From a virus: 23,833 nt of DNA. Below the pieces are notes generated by a model. The model worked only from the letters and a program-made list of their open reading frames with translations. It was not told the origin of the DNA and made no database searches. The stretch is from the IMG/VR virus record IMGVR_UViG_3300046011_009979, positions 1 through 23,833 of that record; one strand, written 5' to 3'. Below, in pieces: positions 4,421 to 23,511 of this stretch. The translations under genes and the position numbers were made by a program. Numbering within the stretch: the first letter of the stretch is position 1; each line of letters begins with the position of its first letter.

Positions 4421-4934
4421 GTAAAAATTCGGCTATGTCTAAATCATAATATATGCTGTTAATTTTATGAACTCCAATTAAATATAGCACATAACTAGCC
4501 ACACTTGATCCGCGACCTACTCCCCAAACTATATTGTATTTTCTCCATGTATCTACTACATATTTCAGTTGTTTGAGCAGCGGGAATAAATTTCTTTCTT
4601 GATATAAAAGTAACTCTTGGCCTACACGCTGTAATTCCTCTTGAGTGTTGCATTGATCTAATATCCATTGTGCTATGTCTAATGTAGCATAGTCCTCGGG
4701 CATGTTCCATGTTGTTTGGTTTGTATTATGAAACATATCTAAGGAATAGTTGCCTGGTAATGGATGATACTCTTTAACTAAAGGTAAATTGGAAAACGTT
4801 GTTTTAACGGAACTATTGTATTGATCCCAATCTTCTACGAAAAATTGGCCTATATCAATTTCTGGTTGTGTATATAAAATATCACAAAGCTCTTTACTTG
4901 ATACGTAAACTTGACCAAAATTGTCTGATTTCAT
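4416..4934 (-). CDS. DnaE-like (DNA polymerase III alpha) fragment protein without catalytic aspartates
   Basis: 172-residue protein that matches only a middle slice of bacterial DnaE/PolC-type alpha subunits. The clearest block is WGVGRGSSVASYVLYLIGV (137-155), the counterpart of the DnaE block around PGRGS-AGSLVAYALGI at the start of the palm; the preceding YQERNLFPLLKQLKYVV resembles the helix leading into it, and the N-terminus (VYVSSKELCDIL) resembles the segment just after the PHP domain. The protein stops at LDIAEFLR, just before where DnaE carries the catalytic PDxDxDF motif, so polymerase activity is not expected. There is no room downstream for the missing part: the next gene starts 21 bases later. 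It is joined to the upstream gene by ATGA. A role as a decoy, clamp-binding or regulatory protein is conceivable but unproven. Confidence 0.75.
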   Translation of the reverse strand: MKSDNFGQVYVSSKELCDILYTQPEIDIGQFFVEDWDQYNSSVKTTFSNLPLVKEYHPLPGNYSLDMFHNTNQTTWNMPEDYATLDIAQWILDQCNTQEELQRVGQELLLYQERNLFPLLKQLKYVVDTWRKYNIVWGVGRGSSVASYVLYLIGVHKINSIYYDLDIAEFLR

Positions 4935-5167
4935 TGAATATCAATTATACCTTTAAATTTATTATTTTTTTGTTCAATTTCTTCAAGTGTTTTGCGATTA
5001 CGTTTTTCCATTTCAAACTTGTAGTTTTCTAGTATCAACTGCATTTGTGGAATCACACTAGTTGGACCATGTCTATGAGCTTGATTAAACTTCGCCATTA
5101 AATCATTATATTTTTTGTGCAATTCTTCGTTTGAAAGTTCTTCTAAGTTTCCTACTAGTGGATGCAT
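4931..5167 (-). CDS. small conserved helical protein, unknown
   Basis: 78-residue, mostly helical, charged protein beginning MHPLVGNLEELSNEELHKKYNDL, with a second helix rich in Glu, Lys and Arg (FEMEKRNRKTLEEIEQK). No membrane segment or catalytic motif. Its ATG shares a base with the mazG stop (TAATG), with a GAAGGAG ribosome-binding site inside the end of mazG, and its stop overlaps the DnaE-like start (ATGA). Position in the coupled chain supports it as real. Confidence 0.75.
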   Translation of the reverse strand: MHPLVGNLEELSNEELHKKYNDLMAKFNQAHRHGPTSVIPQMQLILENYKFEMEKRNRKTLEEIEQKNNKFKGIIDIQ

Positions 5168-5601
5168 TACAAGTCTCCTTCTCTCCTATTTTCGGAGTGA
5201 TGTACATCAAATTCGCCGCCCGGGTAACGTGCTTTCAATTTATTTACGTTCTCTTCAATGACATCGTTAGGATCTAAATTTAAAGCACGGCAAGCATTGG
5301 CCCAATACCACATGATGTCGCCCAATTCACGCTTCATATGAAAAACATTTTCTTCAGTTAAAGGCTTACCTTGAAAGTATATCTTTTTTGGTATTTCGCA
5401 AAATTCGCCTGTTTCGGCCGCTAGTCCTAGTGCTGCTGTAAGCAATAAAGGAACATTTATATCCGGGCCATGAGCATCTTTATCGTAATCAAAGTTAGCA
5501 TCTAGGGTATCCAACCGATTGATAAATGTGGTAAGATTGTTTGAGGGTTTGGAAGTTACTGCTTCGACAAATTCTTTGTATCTATTCAAATCTACAGTCA
5601 T
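5167..5601 (-). CDS. mazG: MazG-like nucleoside triphosphate pyrophosphohydrolase
   Basis: 144-residue all-alpha NTP pyrophosphohydrolase. The metal-binding signature is complete: ExxE at Glu63/Glu66 in AAETGEF and ExxD at Glu92/Asp95 in RELGDIMWYW, with 25 residues between. The closing helix NVNKLKARYPGGEF is typical of phage MazG proteins. MazG enzymes cleave (d)NTPs to monophosphates; in marine phages the cellular effect (ppGpp control or nucleotide clean-up) is debated. It is the first gene of the leftward chain behind a near-consensus sigma70 promoter. The AGGAG ribosome-binding site, six bases before ATG, lies in one arm of a hairpin, so translation may depend on which transcript carries it. 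Confidence 0.9.
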   Translation of the reverse strand: MTVDLNRYKEFVEAVTSKPSNNLTTFINRLDTLDANFDYDKDAHGPDINVPLLLTAALGLAAETGEFCEIPKKIYFQGKPLTEENVFHMKRELGDIMWYWANACRALNLDPNDVIEENVNKLKARYPGGEFDVHHSENRREGDL

Positions 5602-5648
5602 AAAAAACTCCTAGTTTGCACAATTATAAACTATGCAAAGCTAGGAGT
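5602..5648 (-). terminator. terminator-like hairpin enclosing the mazG promoter and ribosome-binding site
   Basis: On the minus strand an upstream arm (5634-5648, starting ACTCCTAG) pairs with a downstream arm (5607-5620, ending CTAGGAGT): 14 base pairs with one bulged base (5640) and a 13-base loop, followed by a run of T. For transcripts arriving from the tail-fibre genes this has the form of an intrinsic terminator. The downstream arm contains the AGGAG of mazG, so any read-through RNA would also hide the ribosome-binding site. Confidence 0.6.
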
Positions 5649-5651
5649 CAA
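5623..5651 (-). promoter_or_regulatory. sigma70-type promoter for the mazG-to-HAD operon
   Basis: Minus strand: TTGACT at 5646-5651, 17-base spacer, TATAAT at 5623-5628, one base from consensus. Expected start point is about 5616, so the transcript begins after the left arm and loop centre of the surrounding inverted repeat and keeps the mazG ribosome-binding site free. Confidence 0.75.
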
Positions 5652-5663
5652 CTTTTTAGAATA

Positions 5664-7667
5664 TTAGTATCCTACACCACCTGCCCATGGTGCACCCATT
5701 GAAGTACCAATAGCTATGTTAGCTGCTGTACCAACTGGGGTCCACTTTATGTAACTACCTGCTAGAGTGGCTATAGTTTGAGTACTTTGAGCTACACCAA
5801 AGTTTAACGTAGGACACAATGTTCCTTGACCGTTGATTCTAAAAATTCCTTTAGCTCTAATCATGAAATTGGAAGGTGTACCAGCTGCTGCTATAGTTGT
5901 TGCCGCAGCACCATATCCTTGTAAAATTCCTGTGTTGTAGAAATGTGTAGTCGAAGCCGCAGTTGATGTTGTACCGCGAGCAGGTACAAACACTGTATCA
6001 TATTGCAGATAACTTACTGTTGCGTTTCCTAAGAATTTTAACGCAATGTTCGAACTGGTAAGAGCTGCACTTGCTTCACAATGAATTTTCATATCCATTT
6101 CGTAAGTTGTGCCAGCAGCTAACATTACGTTACCAATCCATAAACCTGCATTTGATTCAGGAGAGCCCGCAGCAAGATTTCCGAACAATGGTATCTCTGT
6201 GATTGAATTGACTCTATTTAATTGAGCTTTGCCCCATAAGTCTATATTACCACCTAACACATAATAATGTGTAGCTGGAATTAAAGCTTCTCCGGACGAT
6301 GTAACATTGGTTGGTGCAAAGTATAAAACGTTGGAGGCTGTTCCTGTGGCACCCACGCCAAGATTGGCTTCAAATGCACCTTGTTGTACTCCGGTAATGT
6401 TACCGCCAGTGGCACCTACACCAAAACTAATTGGGACTATACTAGTAGATCCGGCTGGTAAATTTAAATTACCTGCAATACCAACACCGCCACTGACTAC
6501 CAAAGCACCTGTTGTAGTTGATGTTGACGTGGTAGTAGCTGCAACAACCACATTGCTAGTTGTTGATGAGCCTAGTACTGCATTGCCAGTACTAAAAATA
6601 TTTCCAGCAATACCAATACCGCCACTGACTACCAAAGCACCTGTTGTAGTTGATATTGATGTTGTAGTAGCTGCAACAACCACATTGCTAGTTGTTGATG
6701 AACCTAACACTGCATTGCCAGTAACAAACAAATTGCCACTTACGCCGGCACCCCCTACTACTACCAAAGCACCAGTTGTAGAACTTGTAGAATCCGTACC
6801 GCTTGGAGCAACAACGTTACCTCCAACACCAGTACCAACAAAAGAAGTGGCATAAACTGTACCGCCCACTCTTATATCACCGGTAATACCTGCTCCACCT
6901 CGAACAACTAATGCACCTGTAGTAGTTGTACTAGAACTGGTATTTGAGTTGGCTAATATATTTCCTTCAAATATACCTGTGCCACTAGCAGATAAACTTC
7001 CACTAGCAGTTACATTGTCTAATGATAAATTGCCACTGATTGTAAAACCTGATAAATCTACATCACGGTTTCTAATTAAATCTTTAATACCAATTGTGGT
7101 TCCACCATCAACTGTAAAGAATTCAAACAAATAATTGGTATTATTTGCTATTTCAGCTGATGTAAAAGTTATTATAGGAGGGCTCGTGCCGCTTAATCCT
7201 GCGATAGTGTCAGGATCTCCTAAAGTTACTGCACTAGGCAATGTAAGTGTATAACTTGCACTTGGATTTACTATCCATAATTTAATTGATGCAAGCTGAT
7301 TATTGGTATTTGCTGGAAAACTAAAGGATAGTGTCATTGCCCCTGCCATTGTAATTTTTTGAAAATTACCATTGGCAAAATTAACAGTTACAGATCCGCT
7401 TGCACTTCCGATATTATTATAAGTTTCTCTCCACGCAGTTAAAGATGGATTTGAAATAATATTACCTGCAAATTCATTATCTAAGGTAGTGTTATTAAGT
7501 GCAGTTTTAAAGATAGCTTTGTTTTGAATATCTTCTATTTCTGCTTTAACAAATGTTAAATTGTTTCTAATATTAGTAAAATTGTCGCGGAAACCTTGAC
7601 TATCATTGTCTTGCCCGGCTACAGGGTAGGTACCGTCGATATTGTTTGGATTAACTTGGCTTGTCAT
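5664..7667 (-). CDS. tail fibre protein with GALVV-x-GG repeats
   Basis: 667-residue fibre protein. The N-terminus (NIDGTYPVAGQDNDSQGFRDNFTNIRNNL, split here as two motifs: NIDGTYPVAGQDN and SQGFRDNFTNIRNNL) is a recurrent start of T4-like marine phage fibres and is related to the N-termini of the 640- and 674-aa proteins. Residues about 90-200 form a beta-rich domain. Four repeats follow, each centred on TTGALVVxGGxGIxGN, two of them near-identical 44-residue units. The C-terminal 200 residues look like a globular beta tip, probably receptor-contacting. It is the last gene of the tail block; its ATG directly follows the stop of the 1176-aa gene, with a late box at 7702-7709. Confidence 0.85.
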   Translation of the reverse strand: MTSQVNPNNIDGTYPVAGQDNDSQGFRDNFTNIRNNLTFVKAEIEDIQNKAIFKTALNNTTLDNEFAGNIISNPSLTAWRETYNNIGSASGSVTVNFANGNFQKITMAGAMTLSFSFPANTNNQLASIKLWIVNPSASYTLTLPSAVTLGDPDTIAGLSGTSPPIITFTSAEIANNTNYLFEFFTVDGGTTIGIKDLIRNRDVDLSGFTISGNLSLDNVTASGSLSASGTGIFEGNILANSNTSSSTTTTGALVVRGGAGITGDIRVGGTVYATSFVGTGVGGNVVAPSGTDSTSSTTGALVVVGGAGVSGNLFVTGNAVLGSSTTSNVVVAATTTSISTTTGALVVSGGIGIAGNIFSTGNAVLGSSTTSNVVVAATTTSTSTTTGALVVSGGVGIAGNLNLPAGSTSIVPISFGVGATGGNITGVQQGAFEANLGVGATGTASNVLYFAPTNVTSSGEALIPATHYYVLGGNIDLWGKAQLNRVNSITEIPLFGNLAAGSPESNAGLWIGNVMLAAGTTYEMDMKIHCEASAALTSSNIALKFLGNATVSYLQYDTVFVPARGTTSTAASTTHFYNTGILQGYGAAATTIAAAGTPSNFMIRAKGIFRINGQGTLCPTLNFGVAQSTQTIATLAGSYIKWTPVGTAANIAIGTSMGAPWAGGVGY
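6489..6752 (-). repeat. two tandem 132-bp intragenic repeats
   Basis: Two consecutive, nearly identical 132-base units (6489-6620 and 6621-6752), each coding for 44 residues including SSTTSNVVVAATTTS and TTGALVVSGG. They differ at only a few bases. A diverged third copy continues up to about 6790. Such repeats can shorten or lengthen a fibre by recombination. Confidence 0.8.
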
Positions 7668-10600
7668 TTATACAAAAACTCCATTTTGTGGGAACTTGAT
7701 ATATTTATCCTTAGTTTCGGGTTTGACATATTTGTCCCTGTTGGTGCTAAAGTTAGTGCCACCACGTACACCTTTTGCTCCTCTTTGAATATCACGCTCA
7801 CGCACACAACAGGTGCCTCCGTCAAACGTGGTTTCGGCTGTTCTAATTGTAGTAATTACTGGAATAAAATATGGAATAGCACTGCCTTGGCTAGTGGTGT
7901 ATGTTAATATGCTTGTTGGATAGCTTTTACCCGACCTTATGTAAACTTGCTGATTAAATACAATTTCGTTTTGGAACAATAATTTAACTTCGGCATCTCC
8001 GCTTTGATCAAAGTACCCATTTACTAAATCCCCCGAAGGCGCATCAAATCCTACGTCGTCACCATCAAATCCAATTTCGGTTAATTCTTCCCAGGTAATC
8101 TTCCATGCTCCGCTGCGTTTGTTAATAACAGAAGAATTTGAAATTTTTTCCAAATAACCTGGTATTATATTACCGTTTTGATCTACCCAACCGTCGTTGT
8201 CGACTCCAACAAAACCTTCTTGAATTTTAAATATAAGAGTTTCACCCTCTAAGAAATTTACTACACCATCAATGTAAAAACTAGCTCTCAGTCTGCTTAA
8301 AAGTGTATTGTTGATACTATTAAACGGTACGCTAACTGCATAATCTACTTTTGTTTCCCCATTAATTTTTATCAGTGCACCAGCCGTAGCAGATACATTT
8401 GACGAAAGTCCTAAAACTGTTGATATTGCATTAGTTGTAGTAGAAATCACTTGCACATTTGCTTCTATAATTGACTCGTCGTCGAGACTTGAAACTAACC
8501 AACCATATGCAACTTTCACCGAATTTGGAACAATCATAGTTGTAGAATTTACAGTTGTGGTTATAACCGAAGTCCTTACTATATCGCCTGTGGTTGATTG
8601 ATTAATATACTTGTCAAAAGTGGTTTGCACACTTGGTTCAAATTTGGCTGTTTCTGGGTTGTAAAATTCTGACAGATAATTGTCCCATTGATATCTATCA
8701 GCGACGAAACTAAAGTTAACTTCGCTTGTTTTTAGACTTTGCTTTAGTCTGTAAGCAATAAGTTTGCTAGCACCTGGTTTAACATATGCTAAAACTATGG
8801 CTCTTGTTAGTCCCGGAATCCTGCCATTTTCTTGCACGGTAAGCATCCATGTAGGGAGAGCGCCTCTATTGGAATACCCAAGTGCTCTTTCTACTCTCAG
8901 CTGCATGTTGTTAAAACTGTTTGGATAAATTGTGCGGTACTCGGTGTCATCAAGCACGAAACCATTTGCAATATCTAAATCAATAACTAAATCTGGTCCT
9001 AGTGTGTCGTATGCTTGGCTGTCTTGTGCATCAACATAAACAACTTCGTAAACTATCTCGCCATCTTCATTTTTAGCAAGAGCCGTTTTTACTTCTCCAA
9101 AATTGATTACTTTATTGTAATGGTTGAATCTTATTGCATTTATAAATGATTCTGCTGTACTAGGTAGTAATCCGGCCAAGAATAAAAATTTAAAAGATTT
9201 TACTACACCAAAGTTTGCATCATCAGGTCTATAAATCAACGAAGGAGTAAAAATTTCTTCGTTTGTAGTAAGTGAACGTAATAAATTTCTATCTTGCTCT
9301 GACGGCAATGATCTTAGGTAAATGTTTTCAAATGGTGACAAATTCCTTGGTCTCACCATTACGGTGAATTCTTTTTTAGCAGAAGAAGTACCATCTGTTG
9401 TTGTAGCGAGCACAGTAAATCTTGCTAATTGGTCAAATGTAGTTCTGCCATTATCAATGGTAATAGATACTGCATTTGTTGTTGTTGATTTTGTTATTGT
9501 TTGATCTAAATTAAAAAATGTTAAAAGAGTTCCTTGTTTAACATAGATTGCAGGCCTTACTTCAATTGAGGTAGCACTTGTAATTGCAATGATTCTACTG
9601 CCTGATGATATATTGGGCCCGGCTACCTGCATACCTACTTCTAATCCTGTCGTATTAATCAGGTTTAAAATAGCATTAGTGCCATCTAAAGAAAAGTACC
9701 TAAAGGTAGTTCTTCCTACCAATCTTCCAGAAGGTAAAAATTTGGTTCCTTGTGGTAGTTTTTTGTAAGGGTCGTCATATGAAAACGAATATGTAAGCTC
9801 TTTCCCTAAAGTATTATAAGCTTGCACAGCTAGTTCACTAACTGTGCCATTATCAATATAACCAAGGAAACTAGGTGATTCCCACACTATTTCCTCATTT
9901 AAAGTTCTTTGAACAGTTAGATTAAATGTAACCGCATCACTTTTTAATGTTGGGTCGGCGGTTCTAAAGGCAGTAATTCTAAAAGTATAAGTTACAAACT
10001 CAGATACCTGTGCTGGTAAAGTACCAAAAATCCATCCTGTACGCTCATTAATGGATAATCCAGACGGTAGACCTGACGCTCCCTGATCAAATAACAATGT
10101 ATCGAAACCAGAATCAACTTCAATGAATAAAATTTGTATAGTGTCTGTTAACTGGGGAGTAGCACCAGTAAAAGTAAGTTGATCACCGGCTGTGGTATAA
10201 TCAGTATATGCTGTCAACAAAATATCGTTTAATCTTACAACTATTCTTGCAGCATTGATTGGAACTATAGATAAAGTATAAGGGCCTCCTGTGCCATTGC
10301 CGTTTAATATTTGTTCAAGTGGATAATCTAAATCGTCTAATCCGCTAAAAGCCAATTCGTCAATTTCCCAGGATACATCTTCGTCATCAGGATCATACGC
10401 TAAAAATCTATATGCAAAGACACTTCCGGAAGTTAAAACTGGTAAACTGTCTGGAGAATTAATTATTGTAGGTCTATAATTGTTGTCCGCATCAATGTTA
10501 ATAAAACTATTGTTAATTAATGTAATATCATTATCAGCTGTAAAGTTTCTTTTACTTACAATTAACAATGTAACATTTTTTGTTTCGTATTTTAAACCGT

Positions 10601-16096: not shown

Positions 16097-16423
16097 TTAG
16101 TAAGGATTGAAACTGCTTCCGCATCCGCAAGTGGTTTGTGCTTGTGGATTATCGATGCTAAAGCTTGCGCCCATGGAATCTTCTGAGTATTTGATTTTTG
16201 CTCCTTGTAGATACTGGGCACTCATCGAATCTACTAGAAGTTTTACACCATCATATTCCAGATCAAAATCGTCCTCATTTTGCATTTCGTCAAATGTAAA
16301 ACCATATTGCATGCCCGAACATCCACCACCTTGTACAAATACACGCAGTTTTAAATCCGGGTTGCCTTCTTCTGCTATTAATTCTTTTAGCTTAACTACT
16401 GCTGATTCATTTAAATCAATCAT
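16097..16423 (-). CDS. A-type Fe-S cluster carrier (ErpA/IscA/HesB family)
   Basis: 108-residue protein, normal length for A-type carriers. The three cluster-binding cysteines are all present: Cys35 in [12 protein letters not shown], and Cys99 and Cys101 in TTCGCGSSF. The order of conserved blocks ([43 protein letters not shown]) follows ErpA/IscA without gaps. These proteins pass assembled Fe-S clusters to apo-enzymes. Its ATG overlaps the SOD stop (ATGA) and has a GGAGA site inside the SOD gene, so the two are coupled. In a phage it may support Fe-S enzymes such as ribonucleotide reductase partners, or cope with oxidative damage; this is inference. The intact motif argues for activity. Confidence 0.93.
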
Positions 16424-16971
16424 GCTCGATCTCCTGCATAAATTCTTCTGTTAACATAATCCCAATTTATAATACGCCATATGTTTTTTAGATATCGTTT
16501 TTTATCTGCACCATAGTCATTAACCCAGGCATGCTCCCACCAATCTATTAGCAAAGCAATATCATTGCGTTTGGCATGGTTTTTTATTGTTTTTATTTTA
16601 CCTTGCCGACTGAGGTATATCCAGTTTGAACCTTGAAGTTTCATGGCTTCTTCTTCGAAGTCCCGTTTAAAATCTGTAAAATTTCCGAAGTGTCTGTTAA
16701 TTAAAGCAAGACTAGCACCAGTTGGGCTATTGCCGTTTTTGGGTGCTCTCAATTGAGGAAAAAATATATTGTGCAAGTATGCGCCAGCTTCATTAAATGC
16801 AGCATCACCCTCGCTTTTGTTGTATCTATCCACATAACCACGAGCTAGTTTACCATAATGATTTTCAATAGTGGTTTTGCTCATTACTGGTGCCAGCCCG
16901 CCTTCGCTGTAAGGCAATTTTTTCAATTCTAGTTTTTTATCTTCTTCTAGCAGGACAATTATGTTACGCAT
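16420..16971 (-). CDS. sod: Fe/Mn superoxide dismutase
   Basis: 183-residue Fe/Mn-family SOD, slightly short. All four metal ligands are seen: His38 (IENHYGK), His67 (AYLHNIFF), Asp143 and His147 ([10 protein letters not shown]). The gateway Tyr46 is kept; the usual second-shell His four residues after the first ligand is Leu42. The outer-sphere Gln position of the Fe type is Gly63, as in Mn enzymes, and the position that holds Gln in Mn enzymes appears to be His132, as reported for some His-type SODs, so the metal cannot be called. No signal peptide, so it acts in the host cytoplasm, removing superoxide. It starts five bases after the IF-1 stop with a poor ribosome-binding site and overlaps the Fe-S carrier gene. 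SOD is rare in phages. Confidence 0.92.
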
Positions 16972-16975
16972 GTAT

Positions 16976-17194
16976 CTATTTAGTGCGATAAACTATGCGA
17001 CCTCTATGTAGATCATATGGACTCATTTCTATCTCTACACTGTCGCCAGCTAATATGCGTATATTATTTTGACGTAGCTTACCAGCAATGGTAGCTATAA
17101 TTTGATGATTGTTATCTAATGTAACACGAAACATTGCACTAGGTAGTAATTCGTCTACTACGCCAGTCATTCTAATTAAATCTTCTTTGCCCAC
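16976..17194 (-). CDS. infA: translation initiation factor IF-1
   Basis: 72-residue S1/OB-fold protein, exactly the length of bacterial IF-1 and alignable to it without gaps; against E. coli IF-1 recalled from memory I count about 41 identical positions. Landmarks are [30 protein letters not shown] and [17 protein letters not shown]-1 binds the 30S A site and works with IF-2, IF-3 and fMet-tRNA in initiation. The start is GTG, with AGAGGA six bases upstream; a late promoter box precedes it at 17215-17222. The conserved RNA-binding face looks intact, so it could function in the host ribosome. I do not know infA as a usual T4-like phage gene. Recent capture from a bacterium is possible, yet it sits in frame with phage spacing and promoters. 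Confidence 0.95.
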
Positions 17195-21281: not shown

Positions 21282-21358
21282 TGGTTGCGGAGAACAGGAA
21301 TCGAACCTGATGTCTTCAGCTTATGAGACTGACGAGTAAACCGTTTCTCCCCTCCGCC
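21282..21358 (-). tRNA. tRNA-Met(CAU), initiator-like
   Basis: 77-base tRNA with encoded CCA. Anticodon loop CTCATAA gives CAU. With CCA as the end, position 1 (G) faces A72 and does not pair, and the D-stem has A11-U24; both are hallmarks of bacterial initiator tRNA rather than elongator Met or Ile2. The segment CTCGTC before the anticodon arm and the end CCGCAACCA also match fMet tRNA. The third hallmark, three G-C pairs at 29-31/39-41, is missing (A-U, G-C, U-G). So it is initiator-like but not canonical. Confidence 0.9.
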
Positions 21359-21664: not shown

Positions 21665-21738
21665 TGGCCCAGGACCAGGGAATTGAACCCCGTCCAGCAG
21701 GTTTGGAGTCTGCTGTGCTACCGTAACACTTGTCCTGG
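21665..21738 (-). tRNA. tRNA-Trp(CCA)
   Basis: 74 bases with encoded CCA and G73. Anticodon loop CTCCAAA reads CCA. Acceptor stem CCAGGAC/GTCCTGG is fully paired, the T-arm CGGGG-TTCAATT-CCCTG has one wobble pair, and the anticodon stem has one A-C mismatch at 31-39. It sits between two small membrane-protein genes. Confidence 0.9.
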
Positions 21739-23420: not shown

Positions 23421-23511
23421 TGGCGGAAGCGGACGGAGTCGAACCCTCAAGGCGCTATTAACGCTCAACTGTTTTCAAGACAGGTACCATCGCCAATTGG
23501 TTTGCGCTTCC
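23421..23511 (-). tRNA. tRNA-Ser(UGA)
   Basis: 91-base class II tRNA with encoded CCA and G73. Acceptor GGAAGCG/CGCTTCC is perfectly paired, anticodon loop reads UGA in CTTGAAA, and the long variable arm (GAGCGTTAATAGCGCCTTG region) forms a short stem. Its 5' end touches the late box of the divergent plus-strand gene. Confidence 0.92.

Follow-up and report, generated by a model that had tools for sequence, protein, structure and literature searches.

Within about 50 nucleotides of a viral genome, a sigma70-type promoter, the ribosome-binding site of a mazG gene and both arms of a strong hairpin overlap one another. The question raised by this locus is what becomes of mazG when RNA reads in from the fibre genes upstream instead of starting at the gene's own promoter. 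We analysed the whole 23,833-nucleotide stretch that contains the locus (IMG/VR record IMGVR_UViG_3300046011_009979), referred to below as the window, and compared the element with its counterparts in other viral contigs.

From 5651 to 5599 the minus strand reads TTGACT CCTAGCTTTGCATAGTT TATAAT TGTGCAAACT AGGAG TTTTTT ATG (Table 1). The promoter scores 11 of 12 against the consensus with a 17-nt spacer, and both the boxes and AGGAG lie where a preliminary description of the locus had placed them, TTGACT-N17-TATAAT being inside an inverted repeat to which the -35 hexamer itself contributes. That repeat had been described as 14 bp long. Its core is indeed present (ACTCCTAG/CTAGGAGT plus TTTGCA/TGCAAA, with C5640 bulged), while its true extent is larger: the predicted stem has 20 pairs, joining 5649-5641 and 5639-5629 with 5625-5606, and this single bulge. 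AGGAG is separated from the mazG ATG by 6 nt. The predicted transcription start falls within the right arm, so that RNA from the promoter would be without the 5' arm, with a 15-nt leader and the Shine-Dalgarno (SD) sequence only ~4 nt from its 5' end.

Table 1. Coordinates of the mazG element and of the genes around it in the window.
Feature	Position	Strand	Remarks
-35 hexamer TTGACT	5651-5646	-	its ACT opens the left arm of the hairpin
-10 hexamer TATAAT	5628-5623	-	at the hairpin top
Hairpin left (5') arm, ACTCCTAG-c-TTTGCATAGTT	5629-5649	-	from folding; only in read-through RNA
Hairpin right (3') arm, SD included	5606-5625	-	from folding
Predicted transcription start	~5616	-	inferred from the -10 position, ~7 nt past -10
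Shine-Dalgarno AGGAG	5612-5608	-	predicted to be fully paired in read-through RNA
T6 run separating SD from ATG	5607-5602	-	possible intrinsic-terminator tail; varies in relatives
mazG start codon ATG	5601-5599	-	
mazG, MazG-like pyrophosphohydrolase	5167-5601	-	PF03819 E 4.7e-9; phrog_229 E 2.7e-49
78-aa ORF	4931-5167	-	start overlaps mazG stop (TAATG); own AAGGAG
ORF of 172 aa	4416-4934	-	PF07733, phrog_11127
Fibre-type gene directly upstream of mazG	5664-7667	-	weak structural-protein match
TAAATA, T4-type late-promoter core	7702-7707	-	precedes the 5664-7667 gene start by 40 nt

Folding predictions agree with the expectation that RNA reading in from upstream would hide AGGAG and that RNA started at about 5616 would leave it free. 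The read-through hairpin has a minimum free energy of -24.0 kcal/mol compared with -7.1 ± 2.2 kcal/mol for dinucleotide shuffles (z -7.84; 0/200), and with upstream context the predicted probability of an unpaired SD at the mazG site is ~0.00; RNA from 5616 to 5599 does not fold (0 kcal/mol). Folding is weak at four other strong sigma70-like promoters of the window (z -1.5 to +0.6), two of which share the ACTAGGAG ribosome site. Since the same ACTAGGAG is used elsewhere, the mazG SD is ordinary for this phage, and the special part is the complementary left arm. Over its whole length the window has no excess of sigma70-like matches of at least 9/12, and the case for the mazG promoter is therefore made by its quality, position and conservation.

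A protein search with MazG yielded 80 viral contigs, to which pattern scans added more; after deduplication 70 distinct mazG upstream regions were obtained, all from uncultivated contigs, some of them fragmentary. Promoter and hairpin occur together in 39 of these regions, and the other 31 are without such a hairpin. Loci fetched by pattern presuppose SD pairing, but those from the MazG search do not, and the latter show the same split as the full set. All 39 elements carry a TTGAC...TATAAT-type promoter with invariant TTGAC and a 17-nt spacer, and their hairpins range from -15 to -27 kcal/mol. The four GGAG bases are all paired in every element (39/39) in a neutral register, which scores Watson-Crick pairs only and penalises all mismatches equally. 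The mean predicted probability of an unpaired SD is 0.007 in read-through RNA versus 0.64 in RNA from the promoter, the SD being partly paired in some predictions for longer promoter-start RNA.

The preliminary description had held that relatives keeping the promoter boxes without the pairing would speak against it. The opposite was seen: beside the 39 regions with strong SD pairing, two non-hairpin regions still have a promoter at the mazG site, one with a weaker hairpin that still involves the SD (L035, -14.3 kcal/mol) and one in which a strong terminator immediately precedes the promoter in place of the hairpin (L040/L041). Among mazG regions, the hairpin was found only where the internal promoter is present. 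A looser scan (SD paired, at least 8 pairs spanning -10) proved unselective, with 104/253 real against 286/1265 shuffled sequences, and an energy threshold of about -15 kcal/mol was therefore adopted. Pattern scans of whole records gave approximately one good element per 100-350 kb genome, and in a promoter-wide scan of a 144-kb relative (G001) the mazG element was the only SD-occluding one at such strength (z -8.0; next -3.9). With the window as query, megablast matched only a tRNA-Ser and no related named phage; blastn with the element returned no copy in named isolates, and the named isolates that we examined are without it.

Several other promoters on the minus strand of the window deserve mention in their own right. 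At 21278-21251 a TTGACT-16-TATAAT promoter comes immediately after the end of an 11-bp terminator (AAAAACGGGTCTATGGCCCGTTTTTT), another way of insulating a promoter, like that of L040/L041 before mazG. A weaker candidate of like construction lies at 22044-21984 before a 78-aa membrane-type ORF; there AGAACTTC, between -35 and -10, pairs with GGAGTTTT at -9.8 kcal/mol, which is not significant alone (z -1.5). A recurrent early-promoter type, TTGACC-A(A/T)AA(A/T)TCCC-TATTTTGC-TATAAT-ATGTNTATAG, contains a weak CTAT...ATAG repeat and stands before small ORFs both in the window phage (22426-22398, minus strand) and in G001 (139927, 139316, 139084, 119361, 142750 (-)).

Could the hairpin be a plain intrinsic terminator that ends the late fibre mRNA, its overlap with the next promoter and ribosome-binding site being incidental and the hiding of the latter a by-product? 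In the window the stem contains GC and is followed by T6, 25 of the 39 elements have a T-run of at least five between GGAG and ATG, and the promoter of L040/L041 has a strong terminator before it. The longest T-run is, however, four in 7 elements and at most three in another 7 (for example L030, GGAGATCAACATG; L051; L074), although the SD is paired in all of them, and a terminator alone has no need for an SD within its stem. A U-tract after the stem, expected of intrinsic terminators in all members, is thus present in the window and missing in a minority of relatives. SD pairing being universal and a long T-run not, the conserved property is occlusion, and we regard termination as the sole function as unlikely; it may add to occlusion in many members, the window element included. 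Of the two effects that the preliminary description had ascribed to the read-through hairpin, the predicted hiding of AGGAG is universal in the set, and termination is not. One of the elements with a short T-run, L074 (record G014: 94512-94571), is a near-perfect palindrome: TTGACTCC...GGAGT...ATG can be read on either strand, and each has a potential promoter.

Palindromes over promoters are also typical of DNA operators, and the repeat could be a site at which a repressor or activator dimer controls the sigma70 promoter; a promoter palindrome without SD occlusion does exist in G001 at 131255. What argues against such a site is that the half-site sequence is unconserved. The arms are wholly different between lineages (for example TTGACTCCTTATATAAACTAGCGTATAGTTAGTTATATAAGGAGT in L010 versus TTGACTCTTGGTCCAGTTAGTGTTAAACTAACTGGACTGGAG in L026), yet still paired. 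Across 32 clusters whose interiors share at most 65% identity, the pairing energy is -6.3 kcal/mol for cognate arms versus -1.8 kcal/mol for non-cognate ones; swapping right arms among the clusters gave -1.96 ± 0.31 kcal/mol, and 0/20,000 permutations reached the cognate value. The arms co-vary. Among 14 close relatives the pair of columns 10/39 is seen as A-U, G.U and G-C, the compensatory signal within these closest relatives being modest (141/500 shuffles reach the pair count). When all 39 elements were aligned with MAFFT and passed to RNAalifold, no consensus structure emerged, the arms having diverged beyond what a sequence-based alignment can handle; per-element folding, the neutral pairing register and arm permutation were used instead. 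With pairing retained despite total sequence turnover, selection on pairing is easy to see.

The mismatches also tell RNA from DNA. The 39 elements contain 50 GT, 6 AC and 19 other mismatched cells, where composition predicts a GT share of 56% of GT plus AC (p 6e-8); after clustering (23 clusters) the ratio is 31:5 (p 1e-4), both p-values disregarding remaining relatedness. A bias for G-T over A-C points to an RNA helix on the mRNA strand, since a double-stranded DNA site would have no reason for it, and the SD is always included in the pairing. We consider an operator very improbable here. The palindrome at G001 131255 (minus strand, in L245) is itself possibly a true DNA operator: 13 perfect bp, ATACTCTAACACT/AGTGTTAGAGTAT, lie at the promoter (z -6.2), the SD is free, and the gene that follows encodes a 471-aa secreted-type protein. 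SD-sequestering hairpins can also act as switches opened in trans by a protein, small RNA or temperature, as riboswitches or thermosensors do, but we give this reading even less credence, as neither loop nor arms are conserved in sequence as a ligand site would be, there is no Rfam match, and the open form is already supplied by the internal promoter, where alone the hairpin occurs.

An occluding hairpin matters for mazG if late transcription enters the gene. The ORFs upstream of mazG encode fibre-type proteins, and the nearest of them would be the source of the read-through RNA. Unbiased word enrichment in G001 identified ATAAATA as the most over-represented heptamer upstream of genes (13 versus 0.8 expected), with a TAAATA peak 23-30 nt before start codons, as in T4 late promoters. 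Of the five fibre-type genes in the window, three are preceded by TAAATA, among them the immediate upstream neighbour of mazG, and mazG itself has no late-promoter core; neither exact TATAAATA nor CTAAATA, tried as late-promoter motifs, was enriched on the window minus strand. TAAATA lies at most 70 nt from the start of the upstream gene in 30/33 hairpin loci, usually at exactly 40 nt, versus 1/26 non-hairpin loci. Eight upstream proteins were examined in full; those of L033 and L036 depart from the usual fibre type, and neither locus shows TAAATA. A gp55-like late sigma factor was detected in 6 of the 10 records examined (E ~1e-23) and not in G001, G003, G006 and G012, which may be incomplete. 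Late read-through from the fibre genes, a premise of the preliminary description, is thus independently supported by the upstream TAAATA and by the gp55-like sigma in this clade.

The neighbourhood of mazG is different in the non-hairpin loci, where the gene mostly overlaps or closely follows genes for recombination, chaperonins or other metabolic functions. A metabolic context is also found in cyanophages P-SSM2, Bellamy and P-HM1, methylophage Melnitz has an equivalent DNA-metabolism cluster, and mazG inside metabolic operons has no hairpin. Together with the TAAATA upstream of hairpin loci, this indicates that the hairpin sits where late transcription is expected to enter mazG. The third gene after mazG (4395-3991) has its own TAAATA at 23 nt, and the protected unit would therefore be mazG and the two ORFs behind it.

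Other features of the window are recorded here as side observations. TAAATA is seen at about 7702, 13144, 16068, 17220 and 4418 (minus strand), in each case 23-40 nt ahead of a start; the genes concerned are those for fibres, for an IF-1-like protein (17194-16976) and the 134-aa ORF at 4395-3991. The 172-aa ORF resembles the NTPase domain of bacterial DNA polymerase III alpha, as a fragment-sized homologue in a separate gene. An IscA/ErpA-like iron-sulfur protein (16097-16423, by eye), an Fe/Mn superoxide dismutase (16420-16971; PF02777/PF00081) and the IF-1-like protein (16976-17194, by eye) are encoded in a row on the minus strand. Three tRNA genes on the same strand (21286-21357, 21665-21738 and 23424-23511) are those for Met, Trp and probably Ser, the last with 84% identity to tRNA-Ser of Erwinia phages.

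The reading that we favour on the sequence evidence, with good though not full confidence, is that of a read-through-proof early promoter, by which late transcripts would be kept from translating mazG. Early in infection, polymerase with the host sigma factor would start inside the right arm, leaving AGGAG free, and MazG would be made. Later, polymerase from the apparent late promoters of the fibre genes (gp55/TAAATA) would cross the element and include both arms in the RNA, which would fold before the ribosome site becomes available and so hide AGGAG. Where the T-run is long, some of the late polymerases would probably stop there, and the remaining RNA would carry a silent mazG. The expected outcome is that mazG is translated early in the infection and stays silent on late transcripts.

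The preliminary description took mazG as the target; the target is not fixed, as the same architecture stands before other genes elsewhere. Like elements precede, behind a fibre gene, the 78-aa or a 126-aa ORF (L110, L130, L176, L120), a DexA-like exonuclease (L107, L181; phrog_255), a 53-aa protein (L149, L183 and others) and gp44 (L168). The homologue of the window's 78-aa ORF in other phages lies directly behind the fibre gene and bears the element itself. The upstream genes of the DexA-like and 53-aa elements have no obvious late-promoter core, and read-through-proof is therefore the safer general term for these. The 53-aa membrane-type protein (PQTAGIGTTGATGIALMILHITGYLTGWAWPLLYVFLIISG) is conserved and element-bearing in many contigs (L149, L183, L157, L153 and others); it has no PHROG relative, and tblastn gave no named phage.

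We lean, with noticeably less assurance than for mazG itself, towards a wider interpretation. Large T4-like phages of uncultivated hosts may possess, about once per genome, a modular, sequence-free device, placed where late transcription enters an early cassette, whose sigma70 promoter forms part of a hairpin that hides the ribosome-binding site, so that the early gene is off on late mRNA; elsewhere the device would guard the DexA-like exonuclease, the 78-aa ORF and the 53-aa protein. It would mirror the T4 arrangement and be the first phage example of its kind; a search of the open-access literature turned up no account of an early phage gene concealed on late RNA. The silence of early genes of T4-like phages on late read-through RNA is usually put down to promoter shut-off and RegB-type mRNA decay (PMC3014915). 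If the interpretation is true, a cis-acting, protein-free hairpin at the 5' end would be a second route to it. At ~50 nt the element is small enough for direct tests in E. coli reporters and for use as an insulated promoter part.

Comparison with known systems places the element beside several of them. Promoter-proximal intrinsic terminators and attenuators share the stem and T-run with many of its members, but here the T-run is unconserved and SD pairing is conserved. In lambda int retroregulation, as would be the case here, an RNA structure lets a gene be expressed from one promoter and silences it on a read-through transcript from another, but sib does so from the 3' side, by way of RNase III decay rather than by hiding the ribosome-binding site. 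The transposases of IS10/Tn10, IS50 and IS200 are reportedly protected from external promoters, as Davis, Simons and Kleckner are said to have described in 1985 and Beuzon et al. in 1999; both papers are listed in PMC2965389. As in the IS10/IS50 fold-back, read-through mazG RNA is predicted to hide the ribosome-binding site and own-promoter RNA to be without the outer arm; unlike there, the gene encodes MazG and not the transposase of a mobile element, and IS10 guards against accidental promoters where the mazG element would guard against a programmed late transcript.

The closest relationship is with the T4 type. In T4 e, soc, 49, I-TevI, I-TevII, I-TevIII and segB, and in Aeh1 mobE, the SD is sequestered only in upstream-initiated RNA; the genes with T4-type hairpins are late and are silenced on early/middle read-through RNA (PMC3014915, PMC2988022). 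The mazG element has in common with T4 e, soc, 49 and I-TevI the sequestration of the SD only in upstream-initiated RNA, as far as prediction goes, and with the T4 type a promoter inside the hairpin whose own RNA, from the predicted start, is without the 5' arm. Our fold of the T4 e leader, with TATAAATA within the hairpin, shows the mirror-image layout that the preliminary description had drawn. The mazG promoter is a sigma70-type TTGACT-17-TATAAT and not T4 late TATAAATA, its -35 forms part of the stem, and the read-through RNA is apparently late, the late core being on the upstream gene and not on mazG. By these feature tests the mazG element is a member of neither the T4 hairpin family nor the IS10 family.
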